From contig NZ_AWXE01000004.1 of NCBI RefSeq assembly GCF_000469155.1, positions 310,001 through 374,000 of the forward strand: a stretch of DNA of 64,000 nucleotides. Direction: 5' to 3'. The position numbers and the translations under genes were made by a program. Under the pieces are notes generated by a model that was given only the letters and a program-made list of their open reading frames with translations, was not told the origin of the DNA and made no database searches. Source of the stretch: Candidatus Micropelagos thuwalensis (GTDB lineage Bacteria > Pseudomonadota > Alphaproteobacteria > RS24). This document shows positions 20,157 to 29,328 of this stretch, piece after piece (the stretch's first letter is position 1; each line of letters starts with the position of its first letter).

Positions 20157-21461
20157 ATGCTCAAAAGTTTCGTAAGGGCATGTGCTCAAAAACTTTTTGC
20201 CGGTGCAATCATGGTTGTACTGGCTCCAGCTTTATTAGCTGGTCATGAAATTATTCAAAGTGGCGTCGGCATCGGCGGTGCCAACGCACATGAAAAAAGT
20301 CAGTCCTTCTCAAAATGGCGAAGCACCGAAAAAGGGATTGCCGTTATTTTCACAGTAGCCGCACGCCAAGTAACATTATTGCCACCCGTTAATCCTAACT
20401 CCCCATCGCTTGAACGAACATTAAGTCAACATTTGGATAACACGATAACACTTTTAAAATCGGAAGACCCCTGTATCGCCTCGGGCTTTTCACCGCGTAA
20501 AGCGCAGCCTGGCTTTATCAGCATGGAAAATTATTTCATGTGCCCTGATGAAGACATTGAGGATGACAATAAAGTTACCATCAGCATTGAGAGCTTCATG
20601 GATTATGCCGAAACACATATTCATTTTGCGCAATTTAAAAATGAAACCGGACAATATCGCGGTTACTTATTTAATTACGACCGGAGACAGGATGTTTTGA
20701 GCCTCGAAGCTAATGGCAATATGATTGCTGAAGATATTGGGCTTATTAAAACTTTTTTCCGTTATATCCATATAGGTATCACCCATATTTTAAGCGGCGT
20801 TGACCATCTGGTTTTTCTTCTCGGTCTTTTACTTCTGACCAACCGCTTGCGTGACATCGTTCTGGTCGTGACTGGTTTTACCATCGGTCACAGTCTGACA
20901 CTGGGGCTGAGCGCAATGAAGATTGTCTCAACTCAGTCTGCCATTGTAGAGGGGCTGATTGGTTTTACTATTTTGGTTGTTGCCGCCGAAGCTGTCATGG
21001 CACGGCGCAATCTTATGTGGTTGGCAGGTGGTGTGTTTGCGCTCATGTTGTTTTTCATGGGCCTCTATTCCATCACGCTTGAAGCCCCTATGCCAATTAA
21101 TGGTTGGGCCGGTTTGATGCTCTTTGCGGTTGCCTATGGGTTTTATTCTCAAAGCCTAAACATTGTGAGACAGACATTGCCAATTGTGGTTGTGATTTTT
21201 GGTTTCGTTCATGGATTTGGTTTTGCTGGCGTTTTGGTCGAGGCAGGTCTACCGAATAACCGACTGCTATCGGCGCTTATCGGTTTCAATATTGGCGTCG
21301 AAATCGGTCAGCTTTTGATTGTCGCTATTGTTTGGTTCGGCTTCTTCAGATATATGCATACACGCTTTTCAGAAAAGCTGCATGGTGCGATTACCGACTT
21401 TGCGGGTATCGCCATGTGTGGCATCGGCATGTTCTGGTTTGCTTCAAGGCTTCTAATTTAA
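20157..21461 (+). CDS. HupE/UreJ-type multi-pass membrane protein with extracytoplasmic domain
   Basis: A 434-residue protein. A signal peptide (to about residue 28 or 45) is followed by a ~150-residue soluble domain and then about seven membrane helices from residue ~200 onward. The first membrane block has YIHIGITHILSGVDHLVFLLGLLLL, shown here in parts: HILSGVDHLVFLLG and FTIGHSLTL; a later helix has FVHGFGFAG. These His-containing motifs are typical of the HupE/UreJ_2 family, whose nickel-related members are transporters. This N-terminally extended type is not proven to carry metal. It is the third gene of the DUF3604 operon, 12 bp after the parvulin-like gene. Confidence 0.8.
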   Translation: MLKSFVRACAQKLFAGAIMVVLAPALLAGHEIIQSGVGIGGANAHEKSQSFSKWRSTEKGIAVIFTVAARQVTLLPPVNPNSPSLERTLSQHLDNTITLLKSEDPCIASGFSPRKAQPGFISMENYFMCPDEDIEDDNKVTISIESFMDYAETHIHFAQFKNETGQYRGYLFNYDRRQDVLSLEANGNMIAEDIGLIKTFFRYIHIGITHILSGVDHLVFLLGLLLLTNRLRDIVLVVTGFTIGHSLTLGLSAMKIVSTQSAIVEGLIGFTILVVAAEAVMARRNLMWLAGGVFALMLFFMGLYSITLEAPMPINGWAGLMLFAVAYGFYSQSLNIVRQTLPIVVVIFGFVHGFGFAGVLVEAGLPNNRLLSALIGFNIGVEIGQLLIVAIVWFGFFRYMHTRFSEKLHGAITDFAGIAMCGIGMFWFASRLLI

Positions 21462-21982: not shown

Positions 21983-23587
21983 TTAGAACTGGTTCATGGT
22001 GTTATCTTCACCAGATGCCAGAAGTGCATTATCACCCGAGAAATATTCTTTATGGTCATCCCCGATATTTGAACCCGCAAGGTCTTGGTGCTTCACAGAA
22101 GCTTGACCACGGCGGATTTCTTGACGCTGAATATCACGAACATAAGCGAGCATGCCTAAATCTCCGAAATAACCTTCAGACAACATATCCGTTCCCAGCG
22201 CCGTTTCGTGATAAGTCGGCAGGGTAATAAGATGGTGGAAAATACCGGCCTCACGCGCCGCATCCGCTTGGAAGGACTGAATGAGCTTATCAGCTTCAGT
22301 CGCCAATTCAGAAGAGTCAAATTCGACACTCATCAAACCGCGTGGCACCTCTACCGGATCAGGATAGGCCGAGACATCTTTACCTGCGGCTGACCACTCA
22401 GCATAGACCTGTTCGCGGAAGGCAAGCGTCCAGTTAAAGCTTGGAGAATTGTTATAAACCAACTTAGCGTTGGGAATAACCTGACGAATACGGTTCACCA
22501 TGCCTGCGATCTGATCGAGATTAGGCTTTTCGGTTTCAATCCAAAGCAAATCCGCGCCGTTTTGGAGGCTGGTGACACAGTCAAGCACAACCCTATCCTC
22601 ACCAGACCCGTCGCGGAAAGCATAAAGGCCGTTAGGCAAACGATATGGCTTCACAAGCTCATCATTTTGTTTGAAGACCATATCACCCTCACCGAGCGAT
22701 GTTGCGTCTGTTACCGGTTCGGTTTTCAAAAATGCGTTATACTGGCTTGCCAAATCACCCGGCTCCTGAGAGACCGGAATTTTTTGGGTCAGACCGGCCC
22801 CAAGAGAATCCGTCCGCGCGACGATAACACCATCATCAACACCCAACTCTATAAAGGCATAGCGAACGGCATTAATTTTGGCGAGGAAATCCTCATGTGG
22901 AACCGTTACTTTACCGTCCTGGTGACCACATTGCTTAGCATCGGAAACCTGATTCTCAATCTGGATACAGCACGCACCCGCTTCAATCATTTTCTTAGCC
23001 AGCAGATAAGTTGCTTCTTCATTACCGAAACCGGCATCAATGTCAGCAATTATCGGCACGATGTGAGTCTGGAAGTTATCAATTTTATCAAGTACGGCAT
23101 CAACGTCACCGCCAGCGGCTCTGGTTTCATCCAGCTCAACAAATAAGTGTCTTAGCTCTCTGGCATCTGCTTGCTTCAAGAAGGTATAAATTTCTTCAAT
23201 CAAACCAGAGACAGCCGTTTTTTCATGCATGGACTGATCAGGAAGAGGACCAAAATCCGACCGTAATGCGGCGACCATCCAACCAGAAAGATAAACATAA
23301 CTTCTATTAGTCGTATGTTTGTGACGCTTAATCGCCATCAGCATTTGCTGGGCAGTAAAACCGTGCCAACACCCGAGAGACTGTGTGTATTGGGACGTAT
23401 CGCCATCATAATTCTGCATATCGGCGCGCATGATGGAAGCTGTGTAGCGGGCAATGTCCAGACCGGTCAGAAACCTGTTCTGCAGACGCATGCGTGCTGC
23501 ATATTCGGGGTTAATACCGCCCCAGGCGACACCGTTTGAAGTTTTGGAGGATGTTAAAGATTGAACCTGCTCAAGATAGTTTGACAT
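21983..23587 (-). CDS. aceA: isocitrate lyase
   Basis: A 534-residue isocitrate lyase of the long type seen in Pseudomonas and Acinetobacter. It splits isocitrate into glyoxylate and succinate in the glyoxylate shunt. The catalytic loop reads KQCGHQDGK (Lys218-His222, active Cys220), with Mg2+/substrate residues in IADIDAGFGNEEAT and the NNSPSFNW segment near residue 380. Gln replaces the second Lys/Arg of the short-type KKCGH signature, as in the long type. Divergently encoded, 277 bp away, is an ScfR/RamB-type regulator, a family known to control acetate and propionate genes. Malate synthase is not in the window. Confidence 0.95.
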   Translation of the reverse strand: MSNYLEQVQSLTSSKTSNGVAWGGINPEYAARMRLQNRFLTGLDIARYTASIMRADMQNYDGDTSQYTQSLGCWHGFTAQQMLMAIKRHKHTTNRSYVYLSGWMVAALRSDFGPLPDQSMHEKTAVSGLIEEIYTFLKQADARELRHLFVELDETRAAGGDVDAVLDKIDNFQTHIVPIIADIDAGFGNEEATYLLAKKMIEAGACCIQIENQVSDAKQCGHQDGKVTVPHEDFLAKINAVRYAFIELGVDDGVIVARTDSLGAGLTQKIPVSQEPGDLASQYNAFLKTEPVTDATSLGEGDMVFKQNDELVKPYRLPNGLYAFRDGSGEDRVVLDCVTSLQNGADLLWIETEKPNLDQIAGMVNRIRQVIPNAKLVYNNSPSFNWTLAFREQVYAEWSAAGKDVSAYPDPVEVPRGLMSVEFDSSELATEADKLIQSFQADAAREAGIFHHLITLPTYHETALGTDMLSEGYFGDLGMLAYVRDIQRQEIRRGQASVKHQDLAGSNIGDDHKEYFSGDNALLASGEDNTMNQF

Positions 23588-23864: not shown

Positions 23865-25310
23865 ATGAGTCAGCTAGAGGGCACAAATCAGGACAGAAAG
23901 CTGTTTGCCGGCATGCGTATTCGCAGGCTACGACGAGAGCTTGGACTCACCCAGGCTGTCATGGCAGATTCACTCGGAATCTCAACGAGTTATCTTAATT
24001 TGATTGAGCGCGACCAACGCCCTGTTTCGGCGCAAATTCTTATTAAAATGGTTGATGTTTTCGACATAGATCCCCGTGGTCTTGCAGGTGACGAGGAGGC
24101 ACGCGCCTACACTCAATTACGTGAGATTTTTGCCGACCCGATGTTTCATGATACGCCAGTCGCAGATCAGGAAATTCGAGATATTTCTGCCGCCAGCCCG
24201 AATGCTGTGGATGCGATTGCCCGTCTATTCCAAACCTATCGCGATGCCAGCACCACCTCATCTATGCTTGCCGAACGTTTGGCTGATAATACACATGGTG
24301 AAACCACCAGCGCGCTGATGTCTTTTGAAGAAGTCAGAGACTTTATCAATCAACGCTCAAACCACTTTCCTGAGCTTGATGATTATGCTGAAGAACTTTA
24401 CAAGAAGGCAGGTCTTGTAGATGACGACCCCTTTCTTGCTCTCAGACACTATCTTCAAGAAACGCATGGCGTATCAACACGCATTGGACCGGTTGACTTG
24501 ATGGGGGATGATTTAAGACGTTATGACCGCCACCGTCAGACTTTGTTTCTCTCGGAATTGCTTAACCAATCCAGCCGAGCATTCCAGATTGCCTATCAGC
24601 TGGCCTATTTTGAACACAGCAAAGCTGTTGAGGAAATTATCAACGGTTCCAAATTGGAAAACTTAGAAGCACAACGACTCGCACGTCTGGCTTTGATAAA
24701 TTATGCCGCCGCAGCGATTTTGATGCCTTATGGGGTTTTTATCCAAACCGCAGAAGATAATGGTTACGACATCACGCTTCTCAGCCGTCGCTTTGGAACG
24801 AGCTTTGAACAAGTATGTCATCGCCTAACCACCTTGCAACGCCCAGGTGCGAAAGGTGTGCCGTTTTTTCTCATTCGTATTGATAATGCCGGAAATGTTT
24901 CTAAGCGTTTTGCCGCGGGTGGATTTCACTTTTCTCGATTTGGAGGCACGTGCCCGCGTTGGAATATTCATGACAGTTTCAGACAACCCGGCAAGGTCAT
25001 GACCCAAATCATCTGTATGGAAGATAGCACGCGTTATTTTTCTGTTAGCCGCACAGTAAGCCGCAATCGCTCCGCCTTTGACAAACAAGATAATCAATTT
25101 GCTATCGGGTTGGGCTGTGAGATTTCTCATGCCAGTAAGTTAGTTTATTCGCATCAGTATAATCTTGAAGAAACCAAAAGTGACATGCCCATAGGGGTAA
25201 ATTGCCGACTTTGCGAAAGGCTTGATTGCCACCAGCGCGCCACACCGCCTTTAATGCGAAGTCTGCGGGTTGATGACAATATTCGTGGCTTGTCGCCTTT
25301 TGACTTTTAA
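23865..25310 (+). CDS. ScfR/RamB-type XRE-family transcriptional regulator (short-chain acyl-CoA regulator family)
   Basis: A 481-residue regulator. Residues ~14-65 form an XRE helix-turn-helix (TQAVMADSLGISTSYLNLIE). Next is an IrrE-like metallopeptidase-related region without a clear HExxH, and a DUF2083-type C-terminal domain ending in the CRLCERLDCHQRATPP cysteine motif. This architecture is that of RamB and ScfR/PccR proteins, which sense acyl-CoAs and control glyoxylate, propionyl-CoA or acetate genes. It is divergent from aceA, so regulation of isocitrate lyase is likely. No Shine-Dalgarno is visible before ATG 23865. The transcript may be leaderless or start at Met17. Confidence 0.85.
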   Translation: MSQLEGTNQDRKLFAGMRIRRLRRELGLTQAVMADSLGISTSYLNLIERDQRPVSAQILIKMVDVFDIDPRGLAGDEEARAYTQLREIFADPMFHDTPVADQEIRDISAASPNAVDAIARLFQTYRDASTTSSMLAERLADNTHGETTSALMSFEEVRDFINQRSNHFPELDDYAEELYKKAGLVDDDPFLALRHYLQETHGVSTRIGPVDLMGDDLRRYDRHRQTLFLSELLNQSSRAFQIAYQLAYFEHSKAVEEIINGSKLENLEAQRLARLALINYAAAAILMPYGVFIQTAEDNGYDITLLSRRFGTSFEQVCHRLTTLQRPGAKGVPFFLIRIDNAGNVSKRFAAGGFHFSRFGGTCPRWNIHDSFRQPGKVMTQIICMEDSTRYFSVSRTVSRNRSAFDKQDNQFAIGLGCEISHASKLVYSHQYNLEETKSDMPIGVNCRLCERLDCHQRATPPLMRSLRVDDNIRGLSPFDF

Positions 25311-25398
25311 AGGGGTGATTTTTAAGCTTATGAATTCTGATTGAGATGAATTGCTCGTGACTGAACAATCCTATAGGAAACGAGTTGGAGTTAAAGCC

Positions 25399-26874
25399 AT
25401 GGCTAAAAAACAGAAAATATTCAAACCCAAAGCCCGTATCCCACGCGGCTTGCGCGATATGCAGGGGCCGGAGCTGGCTTTCCAGAAACTTATGCTCGCA
25501 AAAATTTCCGATGTATATGAAAGCTACGGCTTTGATGCTTTGGACACATCGGCCTTTGAATATGCCGATGCCCTGGGCAAATTTCTTCCTGATGATGACC
25601 GCCCCAATGAAGGTGTGTTCTCCTTTGAAGATGATGACGGGCAATGGTTAAGCATGCGCTATGACCTGACCGCTCCACTGGCGCGCTTTGTCGCCGAGCA
25701 TTATGACCGCCTGCCCAAACCTTTTCGCCGTTATCAATGGGGATCGGTTTTCCGAAATGAAAAGCCTGGGCCTGGGAGGTTCAGACAATTTCTTCAAATA
25801 GATGCTGATACAGTTGGAGCTGGGGGCAGTCAGGCCGACGCCGAAATGTGCCTGATGGCCGCCGACTGCATGCAAACACTCGGCATGTCAGGCGATCAGT
25901 TTTCGGTAAATATTAATAACCGCAAAATTCTGGATGCTATTCTCGCTCAGCTCGGTCTTGATGCGCAGGCCGATGATTATGATATGCGCCGCCTCACTAT
26001 TCTGCGCGCTCTGGACAAGCTCGACAGGCTGGGCATTGGCGGTGTCGCTGATTTGCTCGGCGACGGGCGCAAGGATGAAAGTGGGGATTACACAAAAGGG
26101 GCAGGACTGGATAAAATATCTATTGCCAAGTTAACGGATTTTGTTCAGGCAGGGCGCGACACCCGTTCGGAAACATTAAAAGCCCTCGCAGAAATTATCG
26201 GCGACTCCGAAATTGGTGTTGCCGGTCTGGAGGAACTCACCCTCATGGATGCCTTGATGCAGGATAGTGGGGACAGTATCTGCTTCAACCCGTCCGTCGT
26301 GCGCGGTCTTGGCTATTACACCGGTCCAGTTTTCGAGATTGAGTTGAATATTGAAACCGAGGATGAAAACGGTGAAATCGCTCGATTTGGCTCTGTCGGC
26401 GGTGGTGGACGCTATGATGATCTTGTTAAACGCTTTAAAGGTATTGAAATCCCTGCAACAGGCATATCGATTGGCGTGAGTCGCCTCGCTGCAGCACTTA
26501 CCCTGCTAGGCAAAGCCGAAACCAAGGCCACGCAGGATTTGGTGGTCTTGCTGGTCATGGATAAAACCCGTTTGGTAGAGACATCAGAACTGGTTAAAAC
26601 CCTTAGAAATGAAGGCATACGCGCTGAAATGTATATGGGCGACAGTGGCATGAAAGCACAAATGCGTTACGCCGATAATCGCAATGCCCGTCTTGTGGTC
26701 ATTGAGGGCGAAGATGAACTCGCCGGAGGTGTTGTGACCCTGAAAGACCTTCAACTGGGGCAACAAAATGCCCAAAACATTAAAGATAATGAGGAATGGC
26801 GCGCCTCGGAACATGCACAAACGCAGGTATCCCGCCCCGACCTAGCTAAGAAAATTAAAGAAATCCTCTCCTAA
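25399..26874 (+). CDS. hisS: histidyl-tRNA synthetase
   Basis: A class II aminoacyl-tRNA synthetase of 491 residues. The start is ATG 25399, chosen because GGAG lies 8 bases upstream and the fold begins at RIPRGLRDMQGPE. Motif 2 lies in RYQWGSVFRNEKPG, and the histidine-specific signatures VVRGLGYYTGPVFEIE and GGGGRYDDLV are present, with a C-terminal anticodon-binding domain (VLLVMDK to the end). It is of the alphaproteobacterial type with an insertion around the KDESGDYTKGAG region. It precedes the hisZ-like and hisG genes, an arrangement also found in rhizobia. Confidence 0.95.
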   Translation: MAKKQKIFKPKARIPRGLRDMQGPELAFQKLMLAKISDVYESYGFDALDTSAFEYADALGKFLPDDDRPNEGVFSFEDDDGQWLSMRYDLTAPLARFVAEHYDRLPKPFRRYQWGSVFRNEKPGPGRFRQFLQIDADTVGAGGSQADAEMCLMAADCMQTLGMSGDQFSVNINNRKILDAILAQLGLDAQADDYDMRRLTILRALDKLDRLGIGGVADLLGDGRKDESGDYTKGAGLDKISIAKLTDFVQAGRDTRSETLKALAEIIGDSEIGVAGLEELTLMDALMQDSGDSICFNPSVVRGLGYYTGPVFEIELNIETEDENGEIARFGSVGGGGRYDDLVKRFKGIEIPATGISIGVSRLAAALTLLGKAETKATQDLVVLLVMDKTRLVETSELVKTLRNEGIRAEMYMGDSGMKAQMRYADNRNARLVVIEGEDELAGGVVTLKDLQLGQQNAQNIKDNEEWRASEHAQTQVSRPDLAKKIKEILS

Positions 26875-26881
26875 CCTCTTT

Positions 26882-26978
26882 ATTCATTTTATATGAATTT
26901 ATGAAAATATTTCATATAATTTTATATATATTCTCATATTTGAACTTCATATTTTGTGTATTTAGATATAATATTCAT
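26882..26978. promoter_or_regulatory. repeat-rich AT spacer with TTCATAT-type boxes upstream of HTH-HisZ
   Basis: The 145-bp spacer between hisS and the HTH-HisZ gene contains ATTCAT-TTTAT-ATGAAT (26882-26898) and ATGAAA-ATA-TTTCAT (26901-26915). Further TTCATAT or CTCATAT copies begin near 26911, 26933 and 26946, and a TTCAT near 26974. The repeated pattern and the HTH domain encoded just downstream suggest operator sites for autoregulation. No Shine-Dalgarno precedes the start at 27020. The extreme AT content alone could also produce such repeats, so this needs a binding test. Confidence 0.45.
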
Positions 26979-27019
26979 TTTTTATTGATTTATTTTTGAA
27001 TATTTGAAATAACTACCCC

Positions 27020-28297
27020 ATGAGTCGTTTAACCACTGCTACTGATGTAATTGATGCCCTTGGCGGGACACAAGCTGTCGCGCGCCTACTTAATGTCGGC
27101 GCTTCTGCCGTATCAAATTATCGTCGACTGGGCTTCCCAGCACGCGCTTATTACAAACTCTCGCTGGCCTGCGCCCAAAAAAGGTTAGATGTCGCAGAGG
27201 CCGTATTTGGTGGCCTACAATCGCTTGAAACCGCACAACCATTGCGACCCCCCTCTCGTCAGCTTCGAACAGGCACTCAAGAAGCCGATGGCATGTTGGC
27301 ACAGTTTATTGAAAGCGGTTACGAACCCGTAACACTCTCCATACTCCAGCCCTCCTCGCCATTTATTGACAGAATGGGCCCTGAGATGCAGCGTCGCCTC
27401 TTTACATTTACCGACCCAGCCGGCGAGCCATTATGCCTGCGCCCTGATTTAACTATCCCAACAGCACTAGAGCATTTAAGGCGCGGCATTGGTGGTGCAA
27501 ACCGCTATTGCTATCAGGGAACAGCGTTCCGCTATCAACCACGCGGCAGTGGCAAGCCTGAAGAGTTTACTCAGCTTGGTATCGAGATTATCGGGGAAAC
27601 CATGTCGGACACGCATCAAAAGGACGCGAATGAAGCTGAGGTTTTTGAACAAATATTAAAAATCATTATTGCCGCCGGGGTCAGCAGATTTGAGATTGTC
27701 TTTAACGACTCATCACATCTTGCGGATAATGTTAATGAATATGATTTCTCTGAAGCTTTTAAAAGCCAGTTAAAACGCCGCCTTTTGCAAAGTGATAGTC
27801 TTGATGACATCCAACAAACCCTCACGACACGCGCACAAAATGAAGCGCCCCCACCTAACCCGTTGCGTATGAATTTTGAGGAAACGGATAATATTATCGG
27901 GCGTTCAGGTGCTGAAATCATGGCACGGCTGGAACGTAAACAACAAGAAAGCCAGAACAACGCCAACGATTTAAAGGAATTAAACCGGATGCGCGTCGAT
28001 TTAGAGAAACAATCAGAGGGGAAAGCAGATCTGCCTGATTTTGCCCGCCCTCTTATTCAACAAGCCATAGCAGTGGGCTGCCACGAGGACCAGCTCGTTT
28101 ACGCGCCTAATCTAGGTCAGAAAATGGCTTATTATACGGGTTTGTTTTTTGAGATTCATGTACCTGCATTGCAGGAAAAGCGTGTTATCGCTTCAGGTGG
28201 TCGATATGACGATTTGTTATTTAGCCTGGGCGCATCGCAACCTGTGCCTGCGATTGGTGGCGCAATCGCGCTTGAACGACTTCAGGAGGCAATGTGA
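27020..28297 (+). CDS. hisZ: HisZ-type ATP phosphoribosyltransferase regulatory subunit with N-terminal HTH domain
   Basis: A 425-residue protein in two parts. Residues ~9-58 form a compact Cro/CII-like helix-turn-helix (ALGGTQAVARLLNVGASAVSNY, shown in two overlapping motifs: GGTQAVARLL and GASAVSNYRR). Residues ~82-425 are a rhizobial-type HisZ, a catalytically inactive HisS paralogue, with LCLRPDLTIP, YCYQGTAFRYQPRG, FTQLGIEIIGE and GGRYDDL. HisZ normally completes the short-form HisG enzyme of the first step of histidine synthesis. The reading frame runs through without a stop or frameshift, so this is a genuine fusion, not two genes. It overlaps hisG by one base. The HTH suggests an added DNA-binding, regulatory role. 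Confidence 0.85.
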   Translation: MSRLTTATDVIDALGGTQAVARLLNVGASAVSNYRRLGFPARAYYKLSLACAQKRLDVAEAVFGGLQSLETAQPLRPPSRQLRTGTQEADGMLAQFIESGYEPVTLSILQPSSPFIDRMGPEMQRRLFTFTDPAGEPLCLRPDLTIPTALEHLRRGIGGANRYCYQGTAFRYQPRGSGKPEEFTQLGIEIIGETMSDTHQKDANEAEVFEQILKIIIAAGVSRFEIVFNDSSHLADNVNEYDFSEAFKSQLKRRLLQSDSLDDIQQTLTTRAQNEAPPPNPLRMNFEETDNIIGRSGAEIMARLERKQQESQNNANDLKELNRMRVDLEKQSEGKADLPDFARPLIQQAIAVGCHEDQLVYAPNLGQKMAYYTGLFFEIHVPALQEKRVIASGGRYDDLLFSLGASQPVPAIGGAIALERLQEAM

Positions 28298-29328
28298 TGC
28301 CAACTGACAGGAAAGATGAGTCACAAGACCCCAAATCCTTTATCCTGGCCGTGCCATCTAAAGGACGCCTAGAAGAAAAATCTGCCGAGATTTTTTCTAA
28401 AGCCGGCTTACCCCTTTTACGCGACGGCGCTCGTGGCTACCAAGGGGAAATGGCTGGCAATGGAAGTGTGAAGGTCGAATATGTGTCAGCTGGAGACACC
28501 GCCGCACGGCTTGCCGAAGGGTCAGCGCATATGGGCATAACAGGAGAAGATTTACTACGCGAAGAAATCGCAGATTTCGACAGCGCCATTCATCTGGTCA
28601 GTCCACTTGGCTTCGGACAAGCAGATGTCGTTGTGGCAATACCGGATGGATGGGTTGATGTCACAACCATGAACGACCTCGCTGATGTCGCCGCCGAATT
28701 CAGAGCGAGACACGGGCGACGCCTCCGCGTGGCGACCAAATATACCCATCTCACTACCGATTTCTTTGCGCGGCATGGCGCAGATGATTGCGAACTTGTG
28801 CAAAGTTTCGGCGCAACCGAAGGGGCGCCCAGCTCCGGCGCGGCGGAAGCGATTGTCGACATCACCTCAACAGGCGCAACACTCGCAGCAAATAATCTTC
28901 GCATCCCTAATGACGGAATTATTTTAAAAAGCGAGGCGCAACTCGCGGCATCTTTAAAAGCCAACTGGTCAGATAAAGCACGCGCGGCGGCAAAATTCAT
29001 ATTGACGCGCCTGGAGGCCTATCAGATTGCCAAAAAGCAAATCAAAGTCTGCCTTAGGTCTACACCCAATATGGGGGCCGCTAATATGAGGCCGCCGGAA
29101 ATTGAGCAGTTACAGTCAAATTACGGCGCAAAACTGGTTGATATATCCACTGGTGCAACGGATCAGGGGTCTTCTTACACTTTTATTTTGCCTGTTAATC
29201 AACAGGCGGCATTTATGGATGATATGATAGGCAATCAGCTTTTTGCGATTGGGGAAGTGTCTAAGCCGGATTTTCTGTATTTCCAGCGCTGTGAAATGCT
29301 GGAGCGCTTATTGGGTCGGTTGGTTTAA
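28297..29328 (+). CDS. hisG: ATP phosphoribosyltransferase catalytic subunit, with C-terminal extension
   Basis: HisG condenses ATP and PRPP in the first step of histidine synthesis. ATG 28297 overlaps the upstream TGA and has a strong AGGAGG 8 bases before it. Residues ~14-222 match rhizobial-type HisG: LAVPSKGRL, GITGEDLLREE, GFGQADVVVAIP, ATKYTHLTTDFF, FGATEGAPSSG and the PRPP motif DITSTGATLAANN (188-200). The protein is 343 residues against roughly 230 for that type. The extra C-terminal ~110 residues do not look like the ACT-related domain of long HisG to me. An unusual regulatory attachment is possible. Confidence 0.93.
   Translation: MPTDRKDESQDPKSFILAVPSKGRLEEKSAEIFSKAGLPLLRDGARGYQGEMAGNGSVKVEYVSAGDTAARLAEGSAHMGITGEDLLREEIADFDSAIHLVSPLGFGQADVVVAIPDGWVDVTTMNDLADVAAEFRARHGRRLRVATKYTHLTTDFFARHGADDCELVQSFGATEGAPSSGAAEAIVDITSTGATLAANNLRIPNDGIILKSEAQLAASLKANWSDKARAAAKFILTRLEAYQIAKKQIKVCLRSTPNMGAANMRPPEIEQLQSNYGAKLVDISTGATDQGSSYTFILPVNQQAAFMDDMIGNQLFAIGEVSKPDFLYFQRCEMLERLLGRLV

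Follow-up and report, generated by a model that had tools for sequence, protein, structure and literature searches.

The hisZ gene of the window (the whole 64,000-nucleotide stretch of Candidatus Micropelagos thuwalensis DNA that was analysed) encodes a Cro-like helix-turn-helix (HTH) domain, a disordered linker and a rhizobial-type HisZ in a single frame of the + strand (27020–28297; ATG start, 425 codons), and candidate operators precede it. The product, HTH-HisZ, is probably bifunctional, serving as an enzyme subunit and as an autoregulator (a 'trigger enzyme') that represses the hisZG promoter and senses histidine. The first-pass annotation had placed an HTH fused to a rhizobial-type HisZ at exactly these coordinates, and this was borne out. 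The features of the locus are listed in Table 1.

Table 1. Features of the hisS–hisZ–hisG locus, in window positions
Feature	Position	Strand	Remarks
hisS, histidyl-tRNA synthetase	25351..26874	+	TIGR00442, E 2e-110; ORF
Candidate operator O1, ATTCATTTTATATGAAT	26882..26898	.	centre about -130 from the ATG; similar position in relatives
Candidate operator O2, TTCATATTTTGTGTA	26946..26960	+	centre about -67; imperfect palindrome; many family loci have it at -65 to -67
Candidate operator O3, TTCATTTTTTATTGA	26974..26988	+	centre about -39; overlaps the -35 box; imperfect palindrome
-35 box, TTGATT	26985..26990	+	17-bp spacer to the -10 box; geometry repeated in most relatives
-10 box, AATAAC	27008..27013	+	6 nt between its end and the ATG; leaderless transcript predicted
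Cro-like HTH domain, codons 1–65	27020..27214	+	helices 7–13, 17–24, 28–37, 41–53, 60–63; profiles, predicted structure, selection
Linker, variable and disordered, codons 66–90	27215..27289	+	pLDDT <50 for residues 64–88; pN/pS 0.40
HisZ domain (codons 91–425) and stop	27290..28297	+	PF13393 at 92–421, NF008953; structure match
hisG, ATP phosphoribosyltransferase	28294..29328	+	TIGR00070, E 2e-47; sequence

Results

Gene organization and domain architecture

The fused hisZ is genetically linked to hisG, whose start codon (GTG 28294 or ATG 28297) overlaps the hisZ stop. A separate hisS is also present in the genome, just upstream; for this gene the ATG at 25399 is more likely the start than the TTG at 25351, the first codon of the frame. 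The gap between hisS and hisZ is 145 bp long and 83% AT. A prophage origin of the hisZ locus was considered and found unsupported, the locus being flanked by hisS and hisG. Further upstream, at 23865–25310, lies a gene for a 481-aa XRE-family regulator (ScfR/RamB-like by eye), divergent from an isocitrate-lyase-like gene (21983–23587, - strand).

Residues 82–425 match rhizobial-type HisZ (NF008953, 6e-56). This part has a HisRS-like core, and the protein ends after the core, without the C-terminal anticodon domain of HisRS. The model of full-length HTH-HisZ (pLDDT 68) matched HisZ and HisRS structures; the HisZ structure 3od1 was ranked top by Foldseek, with 1z7m among the matches listed. In the HisZ part, the residues of the YYTG and GGRYD motifs are invariant. 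In the short-form ATP phosphoribosyltransferase (ATPPRT), the HisZ core is tetrameric and the inhibitory histidine pocket that acts on HisG sits in HisZ (PMC9734150); HisZ is without adenylation activity (PMC9437257). In two loci of genus g3 (L021 and L022; totals of 393 and 376 aa) the middle region of HisZ is partly lost, and the HTH and pocket motifs are still conserved.

An HMM search of the N-terminal region, which the first-pass annotation had proposed as a check, matched HTH families consistently though below threshold: residues 1–84 gave NCBIfam carph-isopro (E 5.7e-7), Pfam P22_Cro (1.6e-4) and YdaS (2.2e-4). Against carph-isopro (NF046037) the score was 29.6 bits, the curated cut-off being 38, so the domain is a relative and not a filed member; likewise, its P22_Cro and YdaS scores lie under the Pfam gathering scores, making it related to these families but not filed in Pfam. 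A profile of the family HTHs, compared with the PDB, matched 1rzs (P22 Cro, E 3e-4) and 3bd1 (Xfaso1 Cro, E 4e-4). The isolated HTH, modelled with its relatives, was predicted as a Cro-like helical domain with a mean pLDDT of 89. The best structural match of this model was again 3bd1, with a Foldseek probability of 1.0 though an E of 0.03; VIA-align aligned 63 residues at Z 7.0 and rmsd 2.8. N15 Cro and P22 Cro were the next closest. The predicted fold is thus Cro-like, with sequence support from the comparison of the family profile with the PDB. From the original designation, 'Cro/CII-like', the Cro part stands, within the P22 Cro/YdaS group; CII, with a much weaker profile match, does not.

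Conservation of the HTH and the start of the fusion

Incomplete or absent copies aside, the fusion could be aligned from residues 1–4 onward in all six genera of the PS1-clade family among the 61 genomes searched. Outside this family, matches to the window protein in the same search started at residue 65 or later (at least 65 in every case). Four related loci have 80–81% identity, including those of PS1 clade bacterium MED-G50 and of alphaproteobacterium IMCC14465, the latter also assigned to the PS1 clade in the NCBI taxonomy; by these named relatives, the window probably comes from an alphaproteobacterium of the PS1 clade.

In codon comparisons within two genera, pN/pS was lowest in the HTH (0.079 and 0.092), intermediate in HisZ (0.18 and 0.30) and highest in the linker (0.40 and 0.62). 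By this measure the HTH is the most strongly constrained part of HTH-HisZ. Residues S29, S32, N33, Y34, R35, G38, F39 and P40, in and around the recognition helix, are invariant. An in-frame ATG near codon 92 might be taken to mean that translation starts internally and yields a plain HisZ, the HTH frame being vestigial or spurious. We regard this as hardly credible, since the HTH has a pN/pS of only 0.079 with many invariant residues, the promoter is positioned for the HTH ATG, and the internal ATG is absent from most relatives. Conservation across six genera, selection on the HTH codons and the position of the -10 box together rule out a mis-called HTH start; codon selection and promoter position equally rule out a chance extension of the ORF. 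Hence, on these comparative grounds, the HTH is a translated part of the protein and not an artefact.

Candidate operators in front of hisZ

In the 23 upstream regions of the family, TTCAT/ATGAA half sites numbered 114, compared with 28.6 expected (the maximum in 200 shuffles was 43); part of this count is due to composition, as the gap is 83% AT, and the counts are not independent because the loci are related. Complete TTCAT-N5-ATGAA palindromes numbered 16 in these regions, against 0.04 expected from shuffles. In most loci the site centres lie at -130 or -120, about -66 and about -38 from the start codon, despite a variable hisS–hisZ gap; in genera g2, g3, g5 and g6 this three-site layout is only partly kept. 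The position of O3 (-37 to -39) is kept in 15 of the 19 family loci scanned. O1 holds WTTCATWWWWWATGAAW, which occurs a single time in the 1.96 Mb genome.

The distance from the end of the -10 box to the HTH ATG is 5–6 nt in most readable family promoters, though an automatic promoter scan picked other boxes in some of the loci. Since the site at -38 reaches the -35 box, and 5–6 nt separate the -10 box from the ATG, a leaderless mRNA and repression by overlap with the promoter are predicted.

Specificity of the candidate sites

Genome-wide site scans were carried out as pattern searches. The strict palindrome was found once each in G000, G004, G005, G010 and G013, always at hisZ; a second copy in G001 is within coding sequence. 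A single looser match, TTCATAAATGATGAA, falls in the interval from rpsT to dnaA. In the 64-kb window the hisS–hisZ gap is the densest cluster of TTCAT/ATGAA half sites. The second densest cluster of the window is at 20535–20680, with 5 half sites in 145 bp.

The upstream regions of hisB and hisD were examined and contained no half-site clusters. A wider his regulon is unsupported, as these two genes lack clusters and the other strict sites examined are all intra-coding. A set of 20 unfused hisZ genes, drawn from other families, carried no HTH and 0–3 half sites in 250 bp, mostly zero, a control that is partly confounded because most such genomes are GC-rich. The uniqueness of the strict palindrome, the absence of clusters at hisB and hisD, and the absence of both HTH and clusters at the unfused hisZ genes make it most likely that HTH-HisZ controls only its own hisZG promoter.

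Fusions in other families

A profile search for the HTH was run over 337 Alphaproteobacteria. Clear rhizobial-type HisZ was present in about 47 of these genomes, and 11 of them have the HTH. In one further family (f49, three genomes), HTH-HisZ is accompanied by TTCATATTATATGAA adjoining the start codon; 6 of 8 genome-wide matches to this candidate operator (with at most one mismatch) are at hisZ. In another (f121), HisZ bears a clearly different HTH together with TGTCCTG/CAGGACA-like repeats, and looks from sequence like an independent fusion. In three genomes of 1.2–1.3 Mb (G124, G232 and G321, family f98), the hisZ matches contain TGA or TAA stop codons in frame.

It had been proposed at the outset that the fusion could bind DNA and regulate the operon that encodes it. 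Comparative genomics supports this proposal well, and both properties stand as predictions at that level: the palindromes are at fixed positions, overlap the promoter and are nearly absent elsewhere in the genome, the fusion of a second family comes with the same sites, and the 20 unfused hisZ genes are without them.

Related HTH domains on other proteins

N-terminal fusions of the same HTH type were found on CarA, ArgB, PyrB, CoaBC, SerA, crotonyl-CoA reductase (CCR), GlmU, pyruvate dehydrogenase E1 alpha (PdhA) and YjeF/NnrD, the partner enzymes being confirmed by Pfam for one example each. HTH-CarA occurs in four genomes, all of one family, and HTH-LeuA was found outside Alphaproteobacteria. 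The HTHs on CarA and LeuA exceed the carph-isopro cut-off; the name of that entry fits the occurrence of this HTH type on CarA and LeuA (isopropylmalate synthase). Two HTH-LeuA loci (L191 in G450 and L192 in G677) have ACATTTTGTC/GACAAAATGT-like repeats upstream.

For HTH-CarA the candidate operator is TGGGAW-N5-WTCCCA. Both genome-wide copies in G280 and the single copy in G357 are at carA; G183 and G052 have two copies each, one at carA and the other intra-coding. Candidate palindromes or repeats were also present at the CoaBC, PyrB and LeuA genes and at one YjeF gene. A palindrome test on single upstream sequences was positive (p<=0.05) for 7 of 31 non-mitofilin fusions and 2 of 44 of the mitofilin type, a modest result; such tests have low power and were insufficient for ArgB, CCR, SerA, PdhA, GlmU and TorD. 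Judged from these patterns, HisZ makes a strong case for an HTH fusion with an operator at its own gene and CarA a good one; for the remaining enzymes the case is suggestive.

The commonest fusion form of this HTH type is with a mitofilin-like protein (identified by eye). In these loci (L106–L157, e.g. L113 and L127), spread over many Alphaproteobacteria, the HTH heads a mitofilin-like membrane protein (FGGIRPMAxKL...TVQGWKxR). In several genomes a YdaS-like HTH sits on a TorD-like chaperone domain, recognized by eye (L170–L173). A stand-alone relative of the HTH, in a 68-aa frame (L072, G207), is preceded by TTCATGCTGCTTGA...TCAAGCAGCATGAA, a long inverted repeat that uses the TTCAT half site.

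An upstream palindrome signal was looked for at the mitofilin-like fusions and none was seen; the HTH type can therefore act otherwise. This lends some weight to a reading in which the TTCAT palindromes are recognized by some other regulator or belong to a general promoter element, with the HTH making protein contacts or having another DNA target. We consider that improbable. The sites track the fusion in two families, are missing at the unfused hisZ genes and are near-unique genome-wide, and a separate regulator with a single target is unlikely. Moreover, the half sites follow the recognition helix: SAVSNYR of HisZ goes with TTCAT and the similar SALSNYR of CoaBC with TTCAC, while in CarA both the helix (EAIRKW) and the half site (TGGGAA) are unlike those of HisZ.

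Discussion

In the mechanism that we propose, the C-terminal part of HTH-HisZ would assemble with HisG and sense histidine. Oligomerization of HisZ would pair the N-terminal HTHs for palindromic operators, and these pairs would bind the TTCAT-N5-ATGAA sites in the hisS–hisZ gap and block the hisZG promoter. The three sites, O1 (about -130/-120), O2 (about -66) and O3 (about -38, over the -35 box), are probably used together, and their number may permit cooperative or looped repression. Histidine binding would favour the repressing state, and the regulon would consist essentially of the protein's own promoter. From the conserved sites we infer that HTH-HisZ physically binds DNA; the overlap of O3 with the -35 box argues for repression rather than activation.

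The signal that sets DNA binding is presumably histidine (or the occupancy of HisG). By analogy with known HisZ, control of binding by enzyme state or histidine is plausible because HisZ carries a histidine pocket. The main competing explanation is that HTH-HisZ binds its own promoter simply to hold its level constant, histidine being without effect. The strict sites at its own promoter would suit such plain negative autoregulation equally, and the long disordered linker (residues 64–88) could uncouple the HTH from ligand-driven changes in HisZ. HisZ, CarA, LeuA, ArgB, PyrB and SerA are enzymes known for feedback regulation; their recurrence as partners of the HTH suggests ligand sensing and speaks against autoregulation alone, which we hold to be rather unlikely. 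Extending the histidine-responsive reading to these partners, we see the chances as evenly balanced that Cro-like HTHs form a portable module for self-repression, repeatedly attached in Pseudomonadota to the product-sensing enzymes of various pathways (to HisZ more than once, and to CarA, LeuA, ArgB, PyrB, SerA, CoaBC and others). On this view each fusion would have evolved its own operator in its own promoter, and a single ligand pocket would serve both feedback inhibition and repression.

Trigger enzymes, or enzyme-repressors, are a known concept, with PutA, BirA and NadR as examples. HTH-HisZ would resemble them in that a single protein takes part in catalysis and in repression of a gene of its own pathway; those proteins have other folds and pathways, whereas here a Cro-like module recurs on unrelated enzymes with differing operators. 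P22 Cro, Xfaso1 Cro and YdaS share with the domain the fold and the helix-turn-helix, and have small palindromic operators, like the candidate ones proposed here; they are, however, stand-alone, unfused phage proteins. The fusion resembles short-form ATPPRT (a HisG–HisZ hetero-octamer; PMC9734150) in having a HisRS-like regulatory subunit encoded beside hisG, with YYTG and GGRYD conserved; the known HisZ is described as an enzyme subunit only, while here a Cro-like HTH and candidate operators are added. BzdR (PMC3602430) and MocR/GabR likewise join an HTH to an enzyme-derived domain. In BzdR the enzyme domain lost catalysis and turned into a ligand sensor (PMC3602430), whereas HTH-HisZ still stands beside hisG as the pathway's own subunit.

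What is already known, therefore, comprises enzymes that act as regulators, regulators with enzyme-derived domains, and the domain name in NCBIfam; the carph-isopro entry names the same HTH type, and its readable part gives no operator or mechanism. In the literature searched, which covered few subscription papers, we found no paper describing HTH-HisZ, the operators proposed for it or this group of enzyme fusions.

If the proposed mechanism is true, histidine synthesis in these small-genome marine bacteria would be controlled by the enzyme itself, with no separate regulator. The wider pattern, if true, would mean that regulation evolves simply and repeatedly through the fusion of a phage-type repressor domain to a product-sensing enzyme. 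With the fusions, an old idea, namely that metabolic regulators come about when enzymes recruit DNA-binding domains, can be tested directly: the part is small, at least two enzymes (HisZ and CarA) have a clear candidate operator, and the gene is also present in a named relative, IMCC14465.
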